From a virus, in IMG/VR virus record IMGVR_UViG_3300025168_000178, positions 1 through 42,751 of that record: 42,751 nucleotides of DNA; one strand, 5' to 3'. The position numbers and the translations under genes are program-made. Positions 10,127 to 23,776 of the stretch are shown one piece after another (the first letter of the stretch is position 1; each line of letters begins with the position of its first letter). The notes below the pieces were generated by a model. That model did not search any database, was not told the DNA's origin, and was given only the letters and a program-made list of their open reading frames with translations.

Positions 10127-11713
10127 TTATATTTTTTGTCCTGTAACCCAATTAATAGCCCTAGACGCCATATTGTTTTGTTTATTAGACAATCTTTCGT
10201 CTAATGAATCTCTATCTATAGCAGAACTTTTAGGAGGTTTTGCAGTAGTAACTGCATACCAAAGCCCGTCAAGCAAGTCGTCGTTTCTTCCTTTAGGAAA
10301 TTCAAACATTTCATCAATAATAGCTTCGTGTTCTTTTTTTATAAAAAGTTTTCTTCCGTTTACTATAGGACACAAAAGAGCTTCTAGCCTATCTTCCTTT
10401 TTAATTCCTCCTGGAGGCCTTATTCCTTGCGATAAACCAGGAGCTAGTTTTCTGTCTTTACCTGCTAATTTATTTACGTGGTCTTTAATAATACCTTGAG
10501 CACCAACTTTTTCTACGTTAACCCTTCTAACTGGGTGATACTTCCTAGCTAATTCAATAATAGTTTTAGGCATATCATATAAAGGAGAGTGTTCTCTGTA
10601 ATAATCTATAATATATATATTTCTATCACTATCAATACCTATAGTCATTATTACTTGAAAGTCGCTTCTAGCATTTGTTTCATAAGCTAAGTCAACTCCC
10701 ATATATACATTTACAGGAATAGCAGACTCGTCAATCATCATATAATTAAATCCACCTCTTTCTTCAAGATGTCCTCTATACTTATTAAGTCTATCTATTT
10801 TAAATTTAGCTGTTTCAACATCTCTAGCTTCATTCATATACTCTTGAGCAAATTTATGTACAAGCCCCATCTCTGAGAATCTAGACTTAATATCATCTAG
10901 TTTTTTCTTTGTAAAATAATTTGGCCATAAAGGAACTCCGTCAACCATAGCTTTTTTATACATCACATTCCAAGCAGACTTTCTTCCTTCTTTTTCCGCA
11001 TCTAAGTACCCATCATATACGCCTTGAAGAAAAGAGTCGTAATGGACTATTGTACCAATAAGCCATATTGACCCTTCTTGTTCTTTTGAGTTTTCTAATG
11101 CGGGTTCTACCGTAGACATAACCCATTCTTTAATTTCCCTTCTTCTATCTGGTGTTTTAGTATTTAATTCTGATTCAAAGTCATCTAAAATAATATTAGT
11201 ATATCTTAGTCCTAATTGAGAACGACCACGTAAACGTTGACTTGTACCTTTAGCAATAATCCTATCTCCTCTAGCAGTAGTAAATTCTTTTTCTGTCCAC
11301 TTACTTCCTTTTAAGTCTCCAAAATAATATTGTAAAGCAGGATTAACATCGATATGATTTTGAATATATTTAATATGGTCTATAGCTTGAGACTGTTCTT
11401 CAGATACCCAAGCAATAAATTGTTTTCTTTCTGGAGGTGAAAAGTATAATTGGTATAATAACGCCGTTTTTGCTAATGTAGATTTTGCGTGACCACGAGG
11501 TAATATAATACAAGCTCTTTTTTCGTCTCCAAGTAATAAGTTACTTAATTCATATTGATAGGGAGCTGGACTTGATTTCATAAAATCTTCAGGTAAAAAC
11601 ATTTGACCAAAGGTAATAATGTCTTTTTTTGCTAATTCAAGTGCTTGTTCTTTTTGAGACAAGTCTGGAGGTATTATATTAAATGTTTCAGGCTTTTTCA
11701 AATTCTTTTTCAT
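10127..11713 (-). CDS. terL: Terminase large subunit (DNA packaging ATPase/nuclease, 528 aa)
   Basis: TerL pumps DNA into the prohead and cuts the concatemer. The ATPase domain has Walker A LPRGHAKST (residues 71-79, with Ala in place of the usual Gly before Lys) and Walker B IILDDFE (174-180). The nuclease domain shows GVDLAYE with D341, VNVEKVG with E401, and RNDDLLDGL with D478/D482, consistent with an RNase H-fold metal site. Length is normal. The start overlaps the end of the cyclotransferase gene by 26 bases. Packaging type (headful or cohesive ends) cannot be decided from the sequence. Confidence 0.93.
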   Translation of the reverse strand: MKKNLKKPETFNIIPPDLSQKEQALELAKKDIITFGQMFLPEDFMKSSPAPYQYELSNLLLGDEKRACIILPRGHAKSTLAKTALLYQLYFSPPERKQFIAWVSEEQSQAIDHIKYIQNHIDVNPALQYYFGDLKGSKWTEKEFTTARGDRIIAKGTSQRLRGRSQLGLRYTNIILDDFESELNTKTPDRRREIKEWVMSTVEPALENSKEQEGSIWLIGTIVHYDSFLQGVYDGYLDAEKEGRKSAWNVMYKKAMVDGVPLWPNYFTKKKLDDIKSRFSEMGLVHKFAQEYMNEARDVETAKFKIDRLNKYRGHLEERGGFNYMMIDESAIPVNVYMGVDLAYETNARSDFQVIMTIGIDSDRNIYIIDYYREHSPLYDMPKTIIELARKYHPVRRVNVEKVGAQGIIKDHVNKLAGKDRKLAPGLSQGIRPPGGIKKEDRLEALLCPIVNGRKLFIKKEHEAIIDEMFEFPKGRNDDLLDGLWYAVTTAKPPKSSAIDRDSLDERLSNKQNNMASRAINWVTGQKI

Positions 11714-12083
11714 AAACCCTATCTAACATAGTTAAAGTTTTTATAGAATGCCAATCTCCGTCTGGTACTTCTGTAAAAGAATTAGAACTTTGCCATAGTT
11801 GAGGTCCAGCTACATATATCCAAGCTTTTTCGGTTTTTCCATTTTCTAGTTCTACTGGAGCTGTAGTTCTAATATAAAGACCATTGTCTACTCCTTCATA
11901 CTCATCGTACATATTAAGGTCTTCAGAAGTTACGTCCATAAGTTCAACAACAGCACCTTTCCCTTTTTCATTTTTAATAATAGCTGGAAAAGATTGTGTT
12001 CCTGGAAAAACTAAACTAAATCCTTCTACTTTTCCAGTATCGGGAAATCCTCTTCTAAGTGTTCCGTATACAGCTAATCTCAT
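11688..12083 (-). CDS. Gamma-glutamylcyclotransferase-like protein (AIG2/GGCT fold, 131 aa)
   Basis: Family members release 5-oxoproline from gamma-glutamyl peptides or amines. The substrate loop YGTLRRG (residues 6-12) and the acidic region MYDEYEGVDNGLY (58-70), with the likely catalytic Glu at 63, are both present. Length matches the family. It lies between a zinc-ribbon gene and terL. Small GGCT-like genes occur beside phage packaging genes. Here a class-II glutamine amidotransferase and an amidoligase occur elsewhere in the genome, and family knowledge links such enzymes to gamma-glutamyl or peptide-amide chemistry. The actual substrate is unknown. Confidence 0.85.
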   Translation of the reverse strand: MRLAVYGTLRRGFPDTGKVEGFSLVFPGTQSFPAIIKNEKGKGAVVELMDVTSEDLNMYDEYEGVDNGLYIRTTAPVELENGKTEKAWIYVAGPQLWQSSNSFTEVPDGDWHSIKTLTMLDRVYEKEFEKA

Positions 12084-14012: not shown

Positions 14013-14128
14013 TATCGGCCTCTCTTTGGAAATGCAGAAGAAAATAGTTTTTCTACTCCGTTTGCTACTCTATCCCAAAAAGATAACTTACGTGTACTTT
14101 TTGCGGTTGTTTTTTTAGCTTTCGCCAT
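14012..14128 (-). CDS. Tiny basic protein (38 aa)
   Basis: It starts at ATG 14128, overlapping the stop of the DUF1599-type gene (TAATG), and its TAA overlaps the ATG of the exonuclease gene at 14012. The sequence is MAKAKKTTAKSTRKLSFWDR followed by an amphipathic helix VANGVEKLFSSAF and a basic end. It may be a small nucleic-acid or membrane-surface binding peptide. Function unknown; the fit between neighbours supports it. Confidence 0.55.
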   Translation of the reverse strand: MAKAKKTTAKSTRKLSFWDRVANGVEKLFSSAFPKRGR

Positions 14129-14487
14129 TATTTACCCCATTTCTGGTTTTTGACTATTAACGCCATCACTGCATATATCGCAGTATCTAAAAACGCATCT
14201 TCAATTGGTTCGTTCTGTGCTTTGAAGTTATGTTTAGTTGAAAGGTTAACTAGCCTGTTTATCTTATCGTTTAGCCTTACTATAATACCTAGTAAAGCTA
14301 TATTGACTTCTTCCTCCGATTTTAATTGAGTTCCCATAGCAATATTGCCAGGTCCGTAGTCAAATTGTTTTTTACAAAATGTCATATACATAGTATTAAG
14401 TATTTTTTGAAACTCTTGTTCTGTTTCAGGAAAGTTATCTTTTATATGTAATACTGTATCTTCAGCTGTTGTTGTTTTTTGTTCCAT
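14128..14487 (-). CDS. DUF1599 / Nmad1-like protein (119 aa)
   Basis: The central and C-terminal part matches what I know of the DUF1599 family, also called nucleotide modification associated domain 1: FCKKQFDYGPGNIAMGTQLK, IALLGIIVRLNDKINRLVNL, then PIEDAFLDTAIYAVMALIVK. It is all-helical with conserved Lys, Asp and Arg residues. The family is common in phages and was named for its co-occurrence with base-modification genes. No base hydroxylase or kinase is seen here, so that link is weak. Biochemical function is not established to my knowledge. Confidence 0.75.
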   Translation of the reverse strand: MEQKTTTAEDTVLHIKDNFPETEQEFQKILNTMYMTFCKKQFDYGPGNIAMGTQLKSEEEVNIALLGIIVRLNDKINRLVNLSTKHNFKAQNEPIEDAFLDTAIYAVMALIVKNQKWGK

Positions 14488-14620
14488 CTTTTGGAAAGTC
14501 CTCCATATCAGGTTTATCTTCTAATTTTCTTAATGTATCTAATTGCTGTTGTAATGTTTGAACTAGCTTGTAATCTTTCTTTTCTTTAGCTTCTAGGATT
14601 TTTTTTGTATATTCTTCCAT
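14462..14620 (-). CDS. Small charged helical protein (52 aa)
   Basis: It starts ATG 14620 after GGGAG and ends TGA 14462, overlapping the metallopeptidase end and the DUF1599 gene start in other frames. The sequence MEEYTKKILEAKEKKDYKLV ... LQQQLDTLRKLEDK is a probable single helix or coiled coil. It bridges what would otherwise be a 105-base gap, and the ribosome site for the next gene lies inside it, supporting coupled translation. Function unknown. Confidence 0.55.
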   Translation of the reverse strand: MEEYTKKILEAKEKKDYKLVQTLQQQLDTLRKLEDKPDMEDFPKDGTKNNNS

Positions 14621-14913
14621 AAATAGTCTCCCATACCTAATTGAAACAGTCCATTTGATAATGCATCGATATATCCTTCTTTGTGCTCTAAGCCGTAGTT
14701 AAAGTGCAATGCGTGTAGTATTTCGTGGATTAATGTCTCTTGTTGTCTTGAATGATGAATATTACTATTAATATAGATAATATTATCTTTTACTTCGTGT
14801 CTGCCATACAACTCTTTTGAACTATCTTCGTGCTTTAAATCGGTAAATATTATTTCGTATTCGTGGCCGCCTATAGCAATTCTCGTATCGCGATTTTTAT
14901 TTTTTGGTATCAT
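14593..14913 (-). CDS. Zinc metallopeptidase-like protein (HExxH, 106 aa)
   Basis: The motif LIHEILHALHFNYGLEHKEG gives HEILH at residues 63-67 with a likely third ligand at E79, as in ImmA/IrrE- or SprT-like zincins. ATG 14913 (MIPKNKNRDTRIAIGGHEYE) is the preferred start; the frame extends upstream but only inside the 54-aa gene. Phage proteins of this type may cleave regulators or serve as small domain proteins of unknown substrate. It is the second gene of the leftward operon, so it may be made early in that transcript. Confidence 0.75.
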   Translation of the reverse strand: MIPKNKNRDTRIAIGGHEYEIIFTDLKHEDSSKELYGRHEVKDNIIYINSNIHHSRQQETLIHEILHALHFNYGLEHKEGYIDALSNGLFQLGMGDYLWKNIQKKS

Positions 14914-15061
14914 CTTTCTTTTTCTCCCTATCTTTATTATTAGGCGAATTTTTTCTAATAAAATACAAATCAGTCTCAATCTCTGACAATTCAGGTACTA
15001 TACGGAAACTTTCCTCTATAATAGCTTCTATTTCTTTTATTCTATCTTCTCTTTCACCCAT
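14897..15061 (-). CDS. Small acidic/charged protein, first gene of the leftward operon (54 aa)
   Basis: The frame from ATG 15061 to TAA 14897 encodes MGEREDRIKEIEAIIEESFR, then ELSEIETDLYFIRKNSP and a very basic tail (KDREKKKDDTKK). No Shine-Dalgarno site precedes the ATG, and a candidate promoter ends about 9 bases upstream, so its message may have almost no leader. It overlaps the start of the metallopeptidase gene. Function unknown. Confidence 0.55.
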   Translation of the reverse strand: MGEREDRIKEIEAIIEESFRIVPELSEIETDLYFIRKNSPNNKDREKKKDDTKK

Positions 15062-17976: not shown

Positions 17977-18411
17977 ATGCAAGACACTACTACTATGCGA
18001 CAGACTAAACGTTGCACTACGTGTAATCAATGGCATACGACTGAAGTAGAGATAGAACATCTACCTGTCGGCACAGAAGTATTTGTTATACCAGACTACG
18101 ATAAGCAGTCTTGGGACGTAACACTAGACGTAAAGGATAAAGATATAATACATAACTTTGAGGCTCAGACATATGCAGACGTAAGATATTTAATACAACA
18201 CGTCGCTTTTATGCTACATAACCACAATAAAGCTTTCAATGTGTTCTTTCCTACTAGTCAATTAGAGACACACAGACGTATAAACAGCGTCAGTCTGTCA
18301 GGCTTCTTAGACAATGAGGCAGAAACGACTAGTAAGATAGATAATATGTTTAAGAAATACAGACGACAGCACAATGCTAGTCGTAAACTAATGCTACAAG
18401 GAGGTAGATAA
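17977..18411 (+). CDS. Hypothetical protein with N-terminal CxxC (144 aa)
   Basis: ATG 17977 follows GGAG by 7 bases. Residues 13-16 are CTTC, a single knuckle, with HTTEVEIEHL after it; alone it would not complete a zinc site unless the nearby His helps. The middle is alpha/beta (VRYLIQHVAFMLHNHNKAFN) and the C-terminus is basic and helical (FKKYRRQHNASRKLMLQGGR). The stop overlaps the ATG of the next gene (TAATG). It is the first gene of the unit that probably leads to the amidotransferase. Function unknown. Confidence 0.65.
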   Translation: MQDTTTMRQTKRCTTCNQWHTTEVEIEHLPVGTEVFVIPDYDKQSWDVTLDVKDKDIIHNFEAQTYADVRYLIQHVAFMLHNHNKAFNVFFPTSQLETHRRINSVSLSGFLDNEAETTSKIDNMFKKYRRQHNASRKLMLQGGR

Positions 18412-18683
18412 TGTGTAAAAGTTGTAATGATACAAGAAGTAAAGAAACAGGAATAGTCTATAATATAGACGATAGAATAAAGACGCATAGACGTAACTTG
18501 CAAATGATAGGCAGTATACAAAGTCAATTAGTTCAGTTGCAGTCGGAAGTCCAGCAATTCTATGTAGAGAGTGGAGTAGTCCAGACAGAGATAGTCGCAA
18601 TGCATAATGATATGTCTAGTGTTATGGACGCATTAGAAAACATAAGACTAAAAAACTATGATATAACTAAGGACATAGTATAA
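18411..18683 (+). CDS. Coiled-coil protein with N-terminal CxxC (90 aa)
   Basis: It starts MCKSCNDTRSKETGIVYNID; CKSC at residues 2-5 mirrors the CTTC of the upstream protein, so the two may share a zinc ion or partner. Residues about 25-85 form a long coiled coil (QLVQLQSEVQQFYVESGVVQ). The two genes overlap by TAATG and are likely made in equal amounts. No family recognised. Confidence 0.65.
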   Translation: MCKSCNDTRSKETGIVYNIDDRIKTHRRNLQMIGSIQSQLVQLQSEVQQFYVESGVVQTEIVAMHNDMSSVMDALENIRLKNYDITKDIV

Positions 18684-18814: not shown

Positions 18815-19885
18815 ATGTGTGGAATATATGGAATAGCTAAATCTCCGAAACCTTATACTAAGAAGCAGTCTAAGATTGCTAAAAAGGTATTGAGGCATAT
18901 TGCAGTAGATAGTGAGACGCGTGGTAGTCATTCGTCTGGTATTGCAAGTATCGGAGAGCAGTCTAATATATATAAGTCCCTTTTGCCATCTGGTAAGTTC
19001 GTAGATAGCAAAGAATATACTACTGCTATTAAGTCGTTAGACAATGGTAGTAATATATTACTAGGACACACTAGATTTGCGACTGAGGGAGCTATTGTTA
19101 AGAACAATGCTCACCCATTCCAAGTCGGTGGTGTTATAGGTGCCCATAATGGTTGCGTCTATAACATAGCAGAAATGCAAACCCAGTTAGATAAACAATG
19201 CCCAGTAGATAGTCAGTTGATATTTAAGTCAATTGATGCTACTAATAACATACAGGACGCAGTCGCCGATTTTGATAGTGATTTTGCGTTAAGCTATGTA
19301 AAGAACAACCCAATGATATTACATTTATGTAGAGAGACTAATAGGCCTCTTTCAGTCGCATATGTGCCTCAGTTGGAGACACTATACTATGCGTCAGAAA
19401 GTGATTTTATTGTAGATGCACTACTTAAAGCAGGTATCTTTGGTATAGACGTAGTAAAGTTAAACAAGAATACATTATATAGTTATAATGTTGCTATGTT
19501 TGGAGATACTATATCAAATGTAGTTAAGACTACTTTTGACTATAAGTCCAGAGTATATCAATACAATATTAATAGTTATTCAAATACTAGTAGTATAGGT
19601 AATTCACAATACGACTACGAGTTTGCAGACTATGATTATGTAAGCGACGAAATACCGGATTATGATGAAAATGGAGTACTAAGTAAAGAGTGGCAAGCTA
19701 TGAACAAGCAGGAATTGTGCAGAATATATGTAGGCACACGTCCCAGTGAGTGGTTTTATGACTTGACTGAGCATCAATGGTACTTTATGAACGTTGAGAC
19801 TAATGAGCTTATGAATGAGTGGCAAGTCGCAGAAAGTATGTATGGAGAACAAGACAGATGGGAAGCATACTATGACAGAACATAG
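18815..19885 (+). CDS. Class-II glutamine amidotransferase (Ntn hydrolase, 356 aa)
   Basis: The enzyme should release ammonia from glutamine. Cys2 (MCGIYGIA) is the N-terminal nucleophile, exposed after Met removal. The glutamine pocket is recognisable: R36 in RGSHSSG, GHTRFATEG (84-92), NNAHPF (97-102), HNG (111-113) and D132. After about residue 230 the sequence becomes Tyr/Asp/Asn-rich with no synthetase or isomerase domain, so it is not GlmS, PurF or AsnB; ammonia must go to a partner. The next gene, an amidoligase, overlaps its end by 14 bases, and that is the obvious partner. AAGGAG lies 8 bases upstream, with a structured leader before it. Confidence 0.9.
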   Translation: MCGIYGIAKSPKPYTKKQSKIAKKVLRHIAVDSETRGSHSSGIASIGEQSNIYKSLLPSGKFVDSKEYTTAIKSLDNGSNILLGHTRFATEGAIVKNNAHPFQVGGVIGAHNGCVYNIAEMQTQLDKQCPVDSQLIFKSIDATNNIQDAVADFDSDFALSYVKNNPMILHLCRETNRPLSVAYVPQLETLYYASESDFIVDALLKAGIFGIDVVKLNKNTLYSYNVAMFGDTISNVVKTTFDYKSRVYQYNINSYSNTSSIGNSQYDYEFADYDYVSDEIPDYDENGVLSKEWQAMNKQELCRIYVGTRPSEWFYDLTEHQWYFMNVETNELMNEWQVAESMYGEQDRWEAYYDRT

Positions 19886-21644
19886 AAGAGAAGTACAAGA
19901 GGTAGACGACACAGACTTCACTGCTCCTTGCGATAGTTGTTCTGTTGATATGACTGAAGCTGATGTTGTATCAGACGAAATGGGCAATGATATGTGCCAG
20001 GATTGTTACGACGAAAACTATAGTAATAGTGATTGCTGTGGCTGTGAGTTACATAACGACGAAATAATGCATACTCCTAGTGGAGACGAAGCATATTGTG
20101 AGGATTGCTACCACGACAATATTACATATTGTGAAGGTTGTAGTACCGATTATTGGAACGACGATATGCATTACTCAGAGACTGATGGAGAGTACTATTG
20201 TGAGCAGTGTTATGATGAGTATCATCAATCAAGTAGCTACGAGTGGAACGTCTATAGTAATAGTTTCATAAAAGAAAATAGAGACTTTGCTACTCCTGAT
20301 AAATGTGGATATCGTAGTGATACGTTTAATCTAATTAAGTCTAGACGTTATCAAGGTATAGAGATAGAGACTAATTATGGAGGAGACTGGACTAATAGTT
20401 TTGTCTATGACAAAATTCATAATAAGTTACAAAACTCTAGGTATAGTAATTCAGAAACATCTACTATGTTTAATGTAGTCTACGATGGAAGTGTTAATGG
20501 TGGAGATAATCCTTATGGAGGAGAAGTTGTAGTAAGTCCAAGACGTGGAGACGTGTTGTTTAAAGATATGCTTACTATTACAGAAACTCTTAAATCATCA
20601 GTAGACGCGTACATTAGTAGGAAATGTGGATATCACTTACACATAGACACAAGAGACTATGACTGGCAACACTTCTTAATGTTAGTAATTATGACTAAGA
20701 TGATTGAGCCACATATATATAGTTGGTTGCCTTCTAGTCGTAGAACTAGTAATTGGTGTAAACCAGTATCTCAGTCAATTAACGACTTAAGATATATTTG
20801 CGACAGAGATAGCTTCATAGAATACTATTACGACAATGGACACTTTACTAATGACAAGTATAACGACAAGAGATATCAAGGACTGAACTTACATAGTCAT
20901 TTTCAAGCCAATCAAGGCGTAGAAATTAGATATCACTCGGGAACTTTAAATGCAGATAAAATGTTACATTGGAGTATATTCTGGAGCCAAGTCGTAGATA
21001 AGTGTTACGACTTAGGTACTCAGTTAGCAGACGAAATGCGAGAACGTAATATACACGACTTGTATGATACGTCTCTATTTAAGTCTCTACTTACTAAAAA
21101 CGTAATAAAGTACGAAAAAGACAGAATATCAGACATTAGTGATAGAGTTCAAGTACACGATGGAGCATATACAAATATAAGTCAATACAAAAAAGATAGT
21201 AAGTATCTAAAAGACTTATTAGGTATTAAAAGCGACAAAGTGTATTTGATAGAGCCAATGCTTAGATTTATTAAGCAGAATAGGTACACAAAGGCTACTA
21301 TGACTATTGATAGTCTCTTTGATACGTTTGAAATACCAGTCCTTACACAAGAGTTCTACAAAGAACGTCTGGTGGAGATTATGGACAATCCAAACACTCC
21401 AGCAAGACACATAATAGACTGCTTTAACAATTCAGATTACTTTGTACAATTTGACAAAGATAATATGTCTTTTAAATTAGCAGGTATTATGAGTTCTATG
21501 TTTCCGACTATTGATGATGATGTAGTTAAGTACAATCCATATGGACAGAATAATATGGCATACATCTCAAAAGACAAAGAGCCTTATGATATTGATGGCT
21601 TTGCTTTTAATCCAGTTAGTATAGAAGGAAGTTTAGAAGCTTGA
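19872..21644 (+). CDS. Amidoligase (COOH-NH2 ligase) with N-terminal zinc-cluster domain (590 aa)
   Basis: ATG 19872 (MTEHRREVQEVDD) overlaps the end of the amidotransferase gene. Residues 20-113 hold a run of cysteine pairs (CDSC, CQDC, CGC, CEDC, CEGC, CEQC), a treble-clef or LIM-like multi-zinc domain. Residues 160-380 carry the amidoligase signature related to glutamine-synthetase-fold ATP-dependent ligases: GIEIE (162-166), GGEVVVSPRRG (216-226), CGYHLHID (252-259) and EIRYHSGT (351-358). It probably forms an amide bond on a carboxylate using ammonia or an amine. The last 200 residues are unassigned. The zinc domain may select a protein target. Confidence 0.87.
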   Translation: MTEHRREVQEVDDTDFTAPCDSCSVDMTEADVVSDEMGNDMCQDCYDENYSNSDCCGCELHNDEIMHTPSGDEAYCEDCYHDNITYCEGCSTDYWNDDMHYSETDGEYYCEQCYDEYHQSSSYEWNVYSNSFIKENRDFATPDKCGYRSDTFNLIKSRRYQGIEIETNYGGDWTNSFVYDKIHNKLQNSRYSNSETSTMFNVVYDGSVNGGDNPYGGEVVVSPRRGDVLFKDMLTITETLKSSVDAYISRKCGYHLHIDTRDYDWQHFLMLVIMTKMIEPHIYSWLPSSRRTSNWCKPVSQSINDLRYICDRDSFIEYYYDNGHFTNDKYNDKRYQGLNLHSHFQANQGVEIRYHSGTLNADKMLHWSIFWSQVVDKCYDLGTQLADEMRERNIHDLYDTSLFKSLLTKNVIKYEKDRISDISDRVQVHDGAYTNISQYKKDSKYLKDLLGIKSDKVYLIEPMLRFIKQNRYTKATMTIDSLFDTFEIPVLTQEFYKERLVEIMDNPNTPARHIIDCFNNSDYFVQFDKDNMSFKLAGIMSSMFPTIDDDVVKYNPYGQNNMAYISKDKEPYDIDGFAFNPVSIEGSLEA

Positions 21645-22743: not shown

Positions 22744-22929
22744 ATGAAAAATGATAATAAAAAAATACAAACTTCCTTCGTTATGGATAAGAAACTTTGG
22801 TTAAAGTTTAAGTCTAAAACGTTGGCAGAAGGGTATTCCGTAAAAGATAAATTACATACTCTTATTTCAGACTATATAAAAAAGGAGACTAAAAATGCCA
22901 GCAATTGGTTTCGTATATCCAAGTGGTAA
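22744..22929 (+). CDS. Ribbon-helix-helix-like regulator (61 aa)
   Basis: The pattern IQTSFVMDKKLWLKFKSKTL followed by EGYSVKDKLHTLISDYIKKE is strand, helix, turn, helix, as in Arc/CopG-type DNA-binding proteins, and the size fits. Such proteins bind palindromic operators as dimers. A 10-bp palindrome lies in its own promoter, so autoregulation is plausible. The C-terminal end overlaps the start of the nuclease gene by 35 bases. Confidence 0.7.
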   Translation: MKNDNKKIQTSFVMDKKLWLKFKSKTLAEGYSVKDKLHTLISDYIKKETKNASNWFRISKW

Positions 22930-23776
22930 TAAAGTTTCTTTCGACGAGGTAAGAGAAGGTAATGTAGACATACTTGAAATGGGTATGTCGCTACCGACAC
23001 TAATTGAAATGTCTAAGGAAAGAGACCCTAATAGAAAGCCGTCAACGACTGAGCTTTTAGTTGGAACTTGTGAATCTTATCTTAAGAGGACTAAAGAATA
23101 TTATATAAATCCTCAAGATAGAGCATTTTCCTTAGCAGGAACTATGCACCACGCAAAACTAGAGCAACACGAAGACGAAAGACACTTACTAGAACAGAAG
23201 TTAGAGATGTGGAATATAACTGGTATAGCCGACTTGTATGACAAGAAGACTAAGATGTTAATAGACTACAAAAATACAGGCTCTTACAAGTGTGCTCAAT
23301 TATTAGGTATGACATATAGACTAGTGCCTGACCCTTATGGAGCTAAATATAAATCAAGTGGTAAGTGGGGAAAGAAAGGCTCTCCTAAAATGGTAAAACA
23401 ATGGTATCGCGATGAAGGTTTAGCAGACTTTGGAGATTGGGGTTGGCAGTTAAATTGGTATAGATATTTATTAAGTAATGCAGGCTATGAAGTTGATAGT
23501 ATGTATATACAAGTCACACTTAGAGACGCAGGACTTGCAGTCTCTAGAGATAGAGGACTAGATAAAAATATATACTTAATTGAAGTGCCTAAGTATGATG
23601 ATGAGGTTTTAGAGAATAGGTTTTTGACGTCTAGAGATGAGCTAATTAAAGCTATAGAGACTGGAAACTTACCTCAAAAATGCAGTAATGAACAAACGTG
23701 GAATGGAAGAAAATGTCAATCTTATTGTGACGTTAGAGAACTATGTCCATATAATAATGGGAGTATAAATGGGTAA
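22895..23776 (+). CDS. Cas4/RecB-like PD-(D/E)XK nuclease with Fe-S cysteines (293 aa)
   Basis: Likely a DNA exonuclease for recombination. The nuclease core shows H85/H86 in GTMHHAKLE, D113 in ITGIADLYD, and D124 with K126 in LIDYKNTG, then Gln/Tyr in WQLNWYRYLL. Four cysteines (263, 274, 278, 284) at the C-terminus match the iron-sulphur site of Cas4/AddB-type nucleases. It overlaps the annealing protein gene by 8 bases, the classic phage exonuclease-annealase pair. ATG 22895 follows AAAAGGAG. Confidence 0.85.
   Translation: MPAIGFVYPSGNKVSFDEVREGNVDILEMGMSLPTLIEMSKERDPNRKPSTTELLVGTCESYLKRTKEYYINPQDRAFSLAGTMHHAKLEQHEDERHLLEQKLEMWNITGIADLYDKKTKMLIDYKNTGSYKCAQLLGMTYRLVPDPYGAKYKSSGKWGKKGSPKMVKQWYRDEGLADFGDWGWQLNWYRYLLSNAGYEVDSMYIQVTLRDAGLAVSRDRGLDKNIYLIEVPKYDDEVLENRFLTSRDELIKAIETGNLPQKCSNEQTWNGRKCQSYCDVRELCPYNNGSING

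Follow-up and report, generated by a model that had tools for sequence, protein, structure and literature searches.

A zinc-fronted phage amidoligase that occurs with a class II glutamine amidotransferase, with copies on conjugative or mobilizable elements

The window, i.e., the whole stretch of DNA analyzed here, is a 42.75-kb IMG/VR virus record (42,751 nucleotides) with a GC content of 34% and strong GGAG-type ribosome sites. It encodes an SU10-type major capsid protein, a P22-type portal, terminase, and a DnaB helicase. No relative of the portal was found among the isolate phages in INPHARED, and the large terminase subunit returned matches at only ~26%. The phage family that combines the SU10-type capsid with the P22-type portal is represented by many metagenome contigs and by no isolate with a matching portal. 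The features considered below are as follows.

11688-12083, minus strand: gamma-glutamyl cyclotransferase (GGCT; PF06094, E value of 7.5e-17)
17977-18411, plus strand: 144-aa protein with a CxxC motif, co-directional upstream of the pair, possible operon member
18411-18683, plus strand: 90-aa coiled-coil-like protein, co-directional upstream of the pair, possible operon member
18815-19885, plus strand: class II (Ntn-type) glutamine amidotransferase (GATase), 356 aa, identified by Pfam, alignment to GlmS, and AlphaFold/Foldseek
19872-21644, plus strand: zinc-fronted PF12224 amidoligase (AL), 590 aa from its probable start (the longest open reading frame starts at 19815)
19929-20210, plus strand: three CxxC...CxxC zinc units, residues 20 to 113 of the AL
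20349-20990, plus strand: glutamine-synthetase-like ligase core of the AL (PF12224 profile match)

The 144-aa CxxC protein, to which profile searches assigned no family, is kept in six related loci or locus pairs by tblastn (L003/L005, L004, L033, L034, L035, and L043), while the 90-aa protein is kept in L004 and L005 and has only weak matches of coiled-coil type. No ATP-grasp ligase and no base-modification pathway were found among the window proteins scanned, a set from which several small open reading frames were left out, and no envelope enzyme was recognized adjoining the GATase and AL. Two genes on the minus strand are kept in the phage family: an IrrE-like (Peptidase_M78) metalloprotease at 14593-14979, across much of the family, and a DUF1599-type protein ("nucleotide modification associated domain 1") at 14128-14487. 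The Pfam match of the latter is weak (2.6e-4, below the cut-off), its motif is strongly conserved across the family, and it lies near the pair; it could hint at nucleotide-pool handling.

The upstream member of the pair begins with MCG, such that removal of the initiator Met leaves the catalytic Cys at the N terminus, as in class II enzymes. It matches Pfam GATase_6 above the cut-off (E value of 9.1e-14) and a PHROG aminotransferase family (7e-38). In alignment with Escherichia coli GlmS, Cys2, R36-G37, S40, G42, H85-R87, N112-G113, and D132 all have counterparts, among them the glutamine- and oxyanion-site residues R87, N112-G113, and D132; these positions are invariant or nearly so in 36 phage homologues, with Cys2 invariant in all 36. 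A glutaminase domain (residues ~2 to 240) is followed by a disordered linker (249 to 274) and a small C-terminal domain (276 to 345), and no synthetase or SIS domain was found. The single-chain AlphaFold model (pLDDT of 84 for the AL, see below, and 86 here) has the glutaminase domain of GlmS (1xff) as its best Foldseek match (E value of 8e-14). Fold and glutaminase residues are shared with the glutaminase domains of GlmS, PurF, and AsnB, but the window protein has no fused synthase domain and carries its own small C-terminal domain. We conclude that 18815-19885 is a class II GATase with intact glutaminase residues, predicted from its sequence to free ammonia from glutamine, although it could instead be a gamma-glutamyl hydrolase or amidase and not an ammonia donor.

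The AL matches PF12224 (Amidoligase_2) with an E value of 7.5e-21 and a score of 75.6 bits against a curated cut-off of 22 bits. Counting residues from the start at 19872, E164, E166, D205, S207, E218, H255, R290, N339, E351, and R353 are invariant in 43 relatives. The pattern E-x-E, D-x-S, E, G-x-H-x-H, N, E-x-R is kept, with H257 present in 42 of 43 zinc-type ALs, and the window protein retains every residue that is invariant in ten diverse phage ALs and the 43 zinc-type ALs. A phmmer search against PDB sequences gave no useful match. Structural comparison of the single-chain model returned YbdK, gamma-glutamylmethylamide synthetase (GmaS), and glutamine synthetases as best matches; this support is modest (best E value of 4e-4, probability of 0.99, and a low TM score over the whole chain) and counts against the two-subunit enzyme proposed below. 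The active-site residues are intact on a predicted glutamine-synthetase fold, and the protein is predicted to form an amide bond with ATP and the freed ammonia.

In front of this core, twelve Cys residues make up the three zinc units (C20/C23/C42/C45, C55/C58/C76/C79, and C87/C90/C110/C113), and their positions are conserved in 43 homologues. LIM-domain structures, including PINCH LIM4-5, are among the weaker Foldseek matches of the model (probability of 0.57 to 0.92, E value of ~0.1), and the units look LIM-like. Two other loci (L027, 7071-8417, and L031, 7089-8411) encode a phage protein with a similar triple CxxC...CxxC module close to its end. Since no amidoligase domain was found in those proteins, the zinc module may be a mobile binding module.

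The two genes overlap, by 71 bp if the longest open reading frames are taken (AL, 19815-21644). In relatives L003 and L004, the AL starts 8 bp before the GATase stop; the matching ATG is at 19872 here and is preceded by a GGGA-type ribosome site. From this comparison and the ribosome site, the AL probably starts at 19872 and the real overlap is ~14 bp, which suggests translational coupling. A first-pass annotation made from the letters of the sequence had described this overlap, a class II GATase with an intact N-terminal Cys and no synthetase domain, an AL signature behind a zinc-cluster N terminus, and a GGCT at 11688-12083. All of these identifications hold: profile searches place both members of the pair above their family cut-offs, and the E values of the GATase, AL, and GGCT domain matches exclude chance.

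Single-protein searches of viral contigs returned few relatives, and alignment-based scans were required. So that the pair would not be found by construction, we used a gene unrelated to it, that of the PDDEXK nuclease at 22895-23776, to fetch relatives. Every new locus with enough upstream sequence (43/43) carries both AL and GATase; the pair is thus present in close relatives, and its ligase residues are kept. We then considered AL loci found in viral contigs, in annotated phages, and in genomes. Almost all were collected by AL sequence, so that neighboring genes were not preselected; the exceptions, fetched through the GATase, are L004 and the annotated phages L016 to L019, all of the latter zinc-less. 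AL cores were clustered at 95%, 60%, and 40% identity, and a GATase within 1.5 kb was counted as a neighbor. Zinc-type ALs have a GATase neighbor in 46/46, 32/32, and 9/9 clusters at the three levels, respectively. The zinc-less figures are 20/80, 15/53, and 8/15, a slight underestimate in that the filter missed the annotated GATase of phage Ottawa (L011). Since the phage family of the window itself contributes many of the zinc-type loci, the 40% clusters give the fairer count. An adjacent GGCT was found in none of the 46 zinc-type clusters versus 42 of the 80 zinc-less clusters.

The zinc-type pair occurs in both gene orders, and the combination of zinc units with a GATase appears at roughly four positions in the AL tree, an approximate count given the moderate supports. 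In sister phages, the GATase itself has C-terminal zinc units. Sister-phage loci (L203, 4302-8865; L206 to L209; L214; and L237) have two zinc-type ALs flanking one GATase, and the active-site motifs are intact in both ALs of those inspected. Altogether, zinc-fronted ALs form a variant of their own that is always accompanied by a GATase in the loci sampled.

The GGCT of the window keeps the YGTL motif and the D-x-x-E motif with the catalytic Glu in alignment; phmmer against PDB sequences gave nothing useful, only one chance repeat match. It belongs to the late packaging operon, 7.7 kb from the pair and on the opposite strand, where the genes for the large and small terminase subunits flank it. 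It is present in 16 of 17 records of the phage family and was found in none of five zinc-AL viral records outside it, some of which are fragments. These five records and the lack of adjacency in all 46 clusters rule out GGCT as an obligatory partner of the zinc-type AL. It had been proposed at first that the pair makes an amide-modified product that the GGCT could trim or reverse. The functional-looking pair is borne out by its residues and by its conservation in 43/43 loci, but a trimming or erasing role of the GGCT is not supported, given its strand, its distance, and its distribution, and neither is a link between GGCT and the pair beyond their common genome. In phage C75C1 (L009, 7738-8634), a single protein near an AL is a fusion of a class II GATase-like domain with a GGCT.

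Copies of the pair are also found outside phages. On two Omnitrophota contigs (L112, 5445-19672, and L114, 1509-13681), a zinc-type AL and GATase lie among conjugation-type genes, namely, coupling-protein-like and VirB4-like ATPases and a RadC-like protein, recognized by reading the translated sequences and not by a domain search. In Ruminococcus (L135), the pair is beside relaxase-like and resolvase-like genes. These copies sit on conjugative or mobilizable elements, which favors a role in the cell over one in the virion; modification of virion proteins as the main role is accordingly disfavored.

The association of AL with GATase is already known. The first-pass annotation noted that AL genes are reported near GATases and GGCTs. 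Published cases of AL with GATase, often together with GGCT and ATP-grasp ligases, include LUZ24-like, RIO-1-like, OM43, and other phages. The cassettes of phiRIO-1, LUZ24, tf, UFV-P2, PSA-HP1, and phiM6 combine, as here, a PF12224 AL and a class II GATase in one replication-side block, often with GGCT (PMC3890496, PMC5498523, PMC6256558). Unlike the window block, which holds only GATase and zinc-type AL, these cassettes contain an ATP-grasp ligase, in many cases together with a further COOH-NH2 ligase; the ALs compared (CVT22, GP100, and phiM6) have no N-terminal zinc units, whereas the window AL has three; and the window GGCT lies in the packaging operon rather than in the block. The Arthrobacter phages Waltz and Ottawa resemble the window in that the AL adjoins a GATase with no ATP-grasp ligase annotated nearby, but the order is AL then GATase, the AL (324 to 338 aa) lacks zinc units, and in Waltz a GGCT directly adjoins. 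An OM43 phage is likened here by description rather than by sequence: PF12224 and PF13522 occur in the same genomes, and the available text of that report does not mention zinc units (PMC10580990).

Our literature search found no description of the zinc-type AL, its strict link to GATase, or the conjugative copies, which we therefore consider new, although Iyer et al. (2009) might mention them. That work reportedly describes the AL and GATase association and a phage "peptidoglycan modification" cassette. Phage ALs have been catalogued since 2009, and we know of no demonstrated substrate. A functional parallel is MurT/GatD, whose folds (a Mur ligase and a class I-type GATase) are unrelated to those of the window pair, which is not a member of that system. 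In Staphylococcus aureus, MurT/GatD amidates peptidoglycan, with a separate amidotransferase feeding ammonia to an ATP-dependent ligase, as proposed here (PMC3267633).

We propose, with a probability of roughly 0.55 and on the strength of conserved residues, predicted structures, and the strict pairing in the sampled loci, that the pair is a glutamine-fed, ATP-dependent two-subunit enzyme for carboxylate amidation. The GATase would hydrolyze glutamine at its N-terminal Cys and pass ammonia to the AL, whose glutamine-synthetase-like core would activate a carboxylate with ATP and convert it to a carboxamide, while the LIM-like zinc units would dock the two subunits, the substrate, or both. Gene content, conservation, and pairing are observed, as are the intact active sites and the predicted folds; we infer that ammonia is transferred, that the reaction is an amidation and not some other amide ligation, and what the zinc units do. 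The literature search found no activity measurement for the family and no tests of these phage genes, which counts against the enzyme reading. Encoded with replication-side genes, the pair would act inside the infected cell. Its target might be a cell-envelope precursor such as a peptidoglycan stem peptide, with the surface altered against competing elements. Peptidoglycan or cell-surface modification has been proposed for phage cassettes (PMC5498523, PMC6256558, PMC11318856), and the literature search found no experiment on peptidoglycan as their substrate; by this published precedent alone, the envelope is tentatively the likeliest target, and the lack of a recognized envelope enzyme beside the pair counts against it. 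More doubtful is a wider role as a mobile two-subunit amidation system of phages and conjugative elements, guided by the zinc units to a host macromolecule (protein or envelope precursor) and blocking competing elements.

The zinc units could instead recruit a host or phage protein whose side chain or C terminus would be amidated for takeover or counter-defense. LIM-like units are typical protein-binding modules (cf. the PINCH LIM4-5 matches, at a probability of 0.57 to 0.92), a related triple-zinc cluster occurs in a non-AL phage protein (L027 and L031), and the module is found on phages and conjugative elements, which have host-takeover and defense problems in common. However, zinc units occur where a GATase subunit does, a pattern that fits subunit docking equally with substrate choice, and there is no candidate target protein; we consider such protein-directed amidation unlikely. 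Less likely again is gamma-glutamyl amine or peptide ligation, in which the AL would join glutamate to an amine, the GATase would serve as a hydrolase or glutamate supplier, and the GGCT would yield 5-oxoproline and the amine. The closest AL folds do include gamma-glutamylmethylamide synthetase and YbdK, GGCT neighbors zinc-less ALs in 42/80 clusters and occurs in 16/17 family records, and C75C1 has its GATase-like/GGCT fusion near an AL. Yet zinc-type loci have no adjacent GGCT (0/46), the five other zinc-AL viral records yielded none, and the GGCT here belongs to a late operon on the other strand.

Amidation or decoration of a modified base by the pair seems very improbable, in agreement with the initial view that DNA is the less likely target. 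In other phages, class II GATases act in the 7-deazaguanine modification of DNA, and the DUF1599-type gene at 14128-14487 is conserved in the family, albeit with a Pfam match below the cut-off. Against this, no base-modification pathway was found among the window proteins scanned, the conjugative-element copies have no obvious nucleotide-metabolism neighbors, and RsaI, HpaI, EcoRV, SmaI, and HaeIII readily digest the DNA of phage tf, whose AL and GATase cassette is related to the window pair (PMC3517423). We give the least credence to general nitrogen metabolism, i.e., auxiliary genes that move glutamine nitrogen into amino-acid pools, a role suggested for a Planctomycetes phage that encodes a GATase, an amidoligase, a glutathione synthase, and a GGCT (PMC10945688). 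According to the available text of that report, its tests used whole phage rather than single genes, and the zinc module, strict pairing, and conjugative spread seen here argue for a specific modification and not for pool filling.

The division between zinc-type ALs, always found with a GATase, and GGCT-linked ALs, usually without one, provides a simple rule, open to test, as to where each branch obtains its nitrogen. In the window's phage family, the system is available for assay in a minimal form of two genes. Finally, the copies on conjugative elements narrow the likely role of the pair to one that benefits mobile DNA within a cell.
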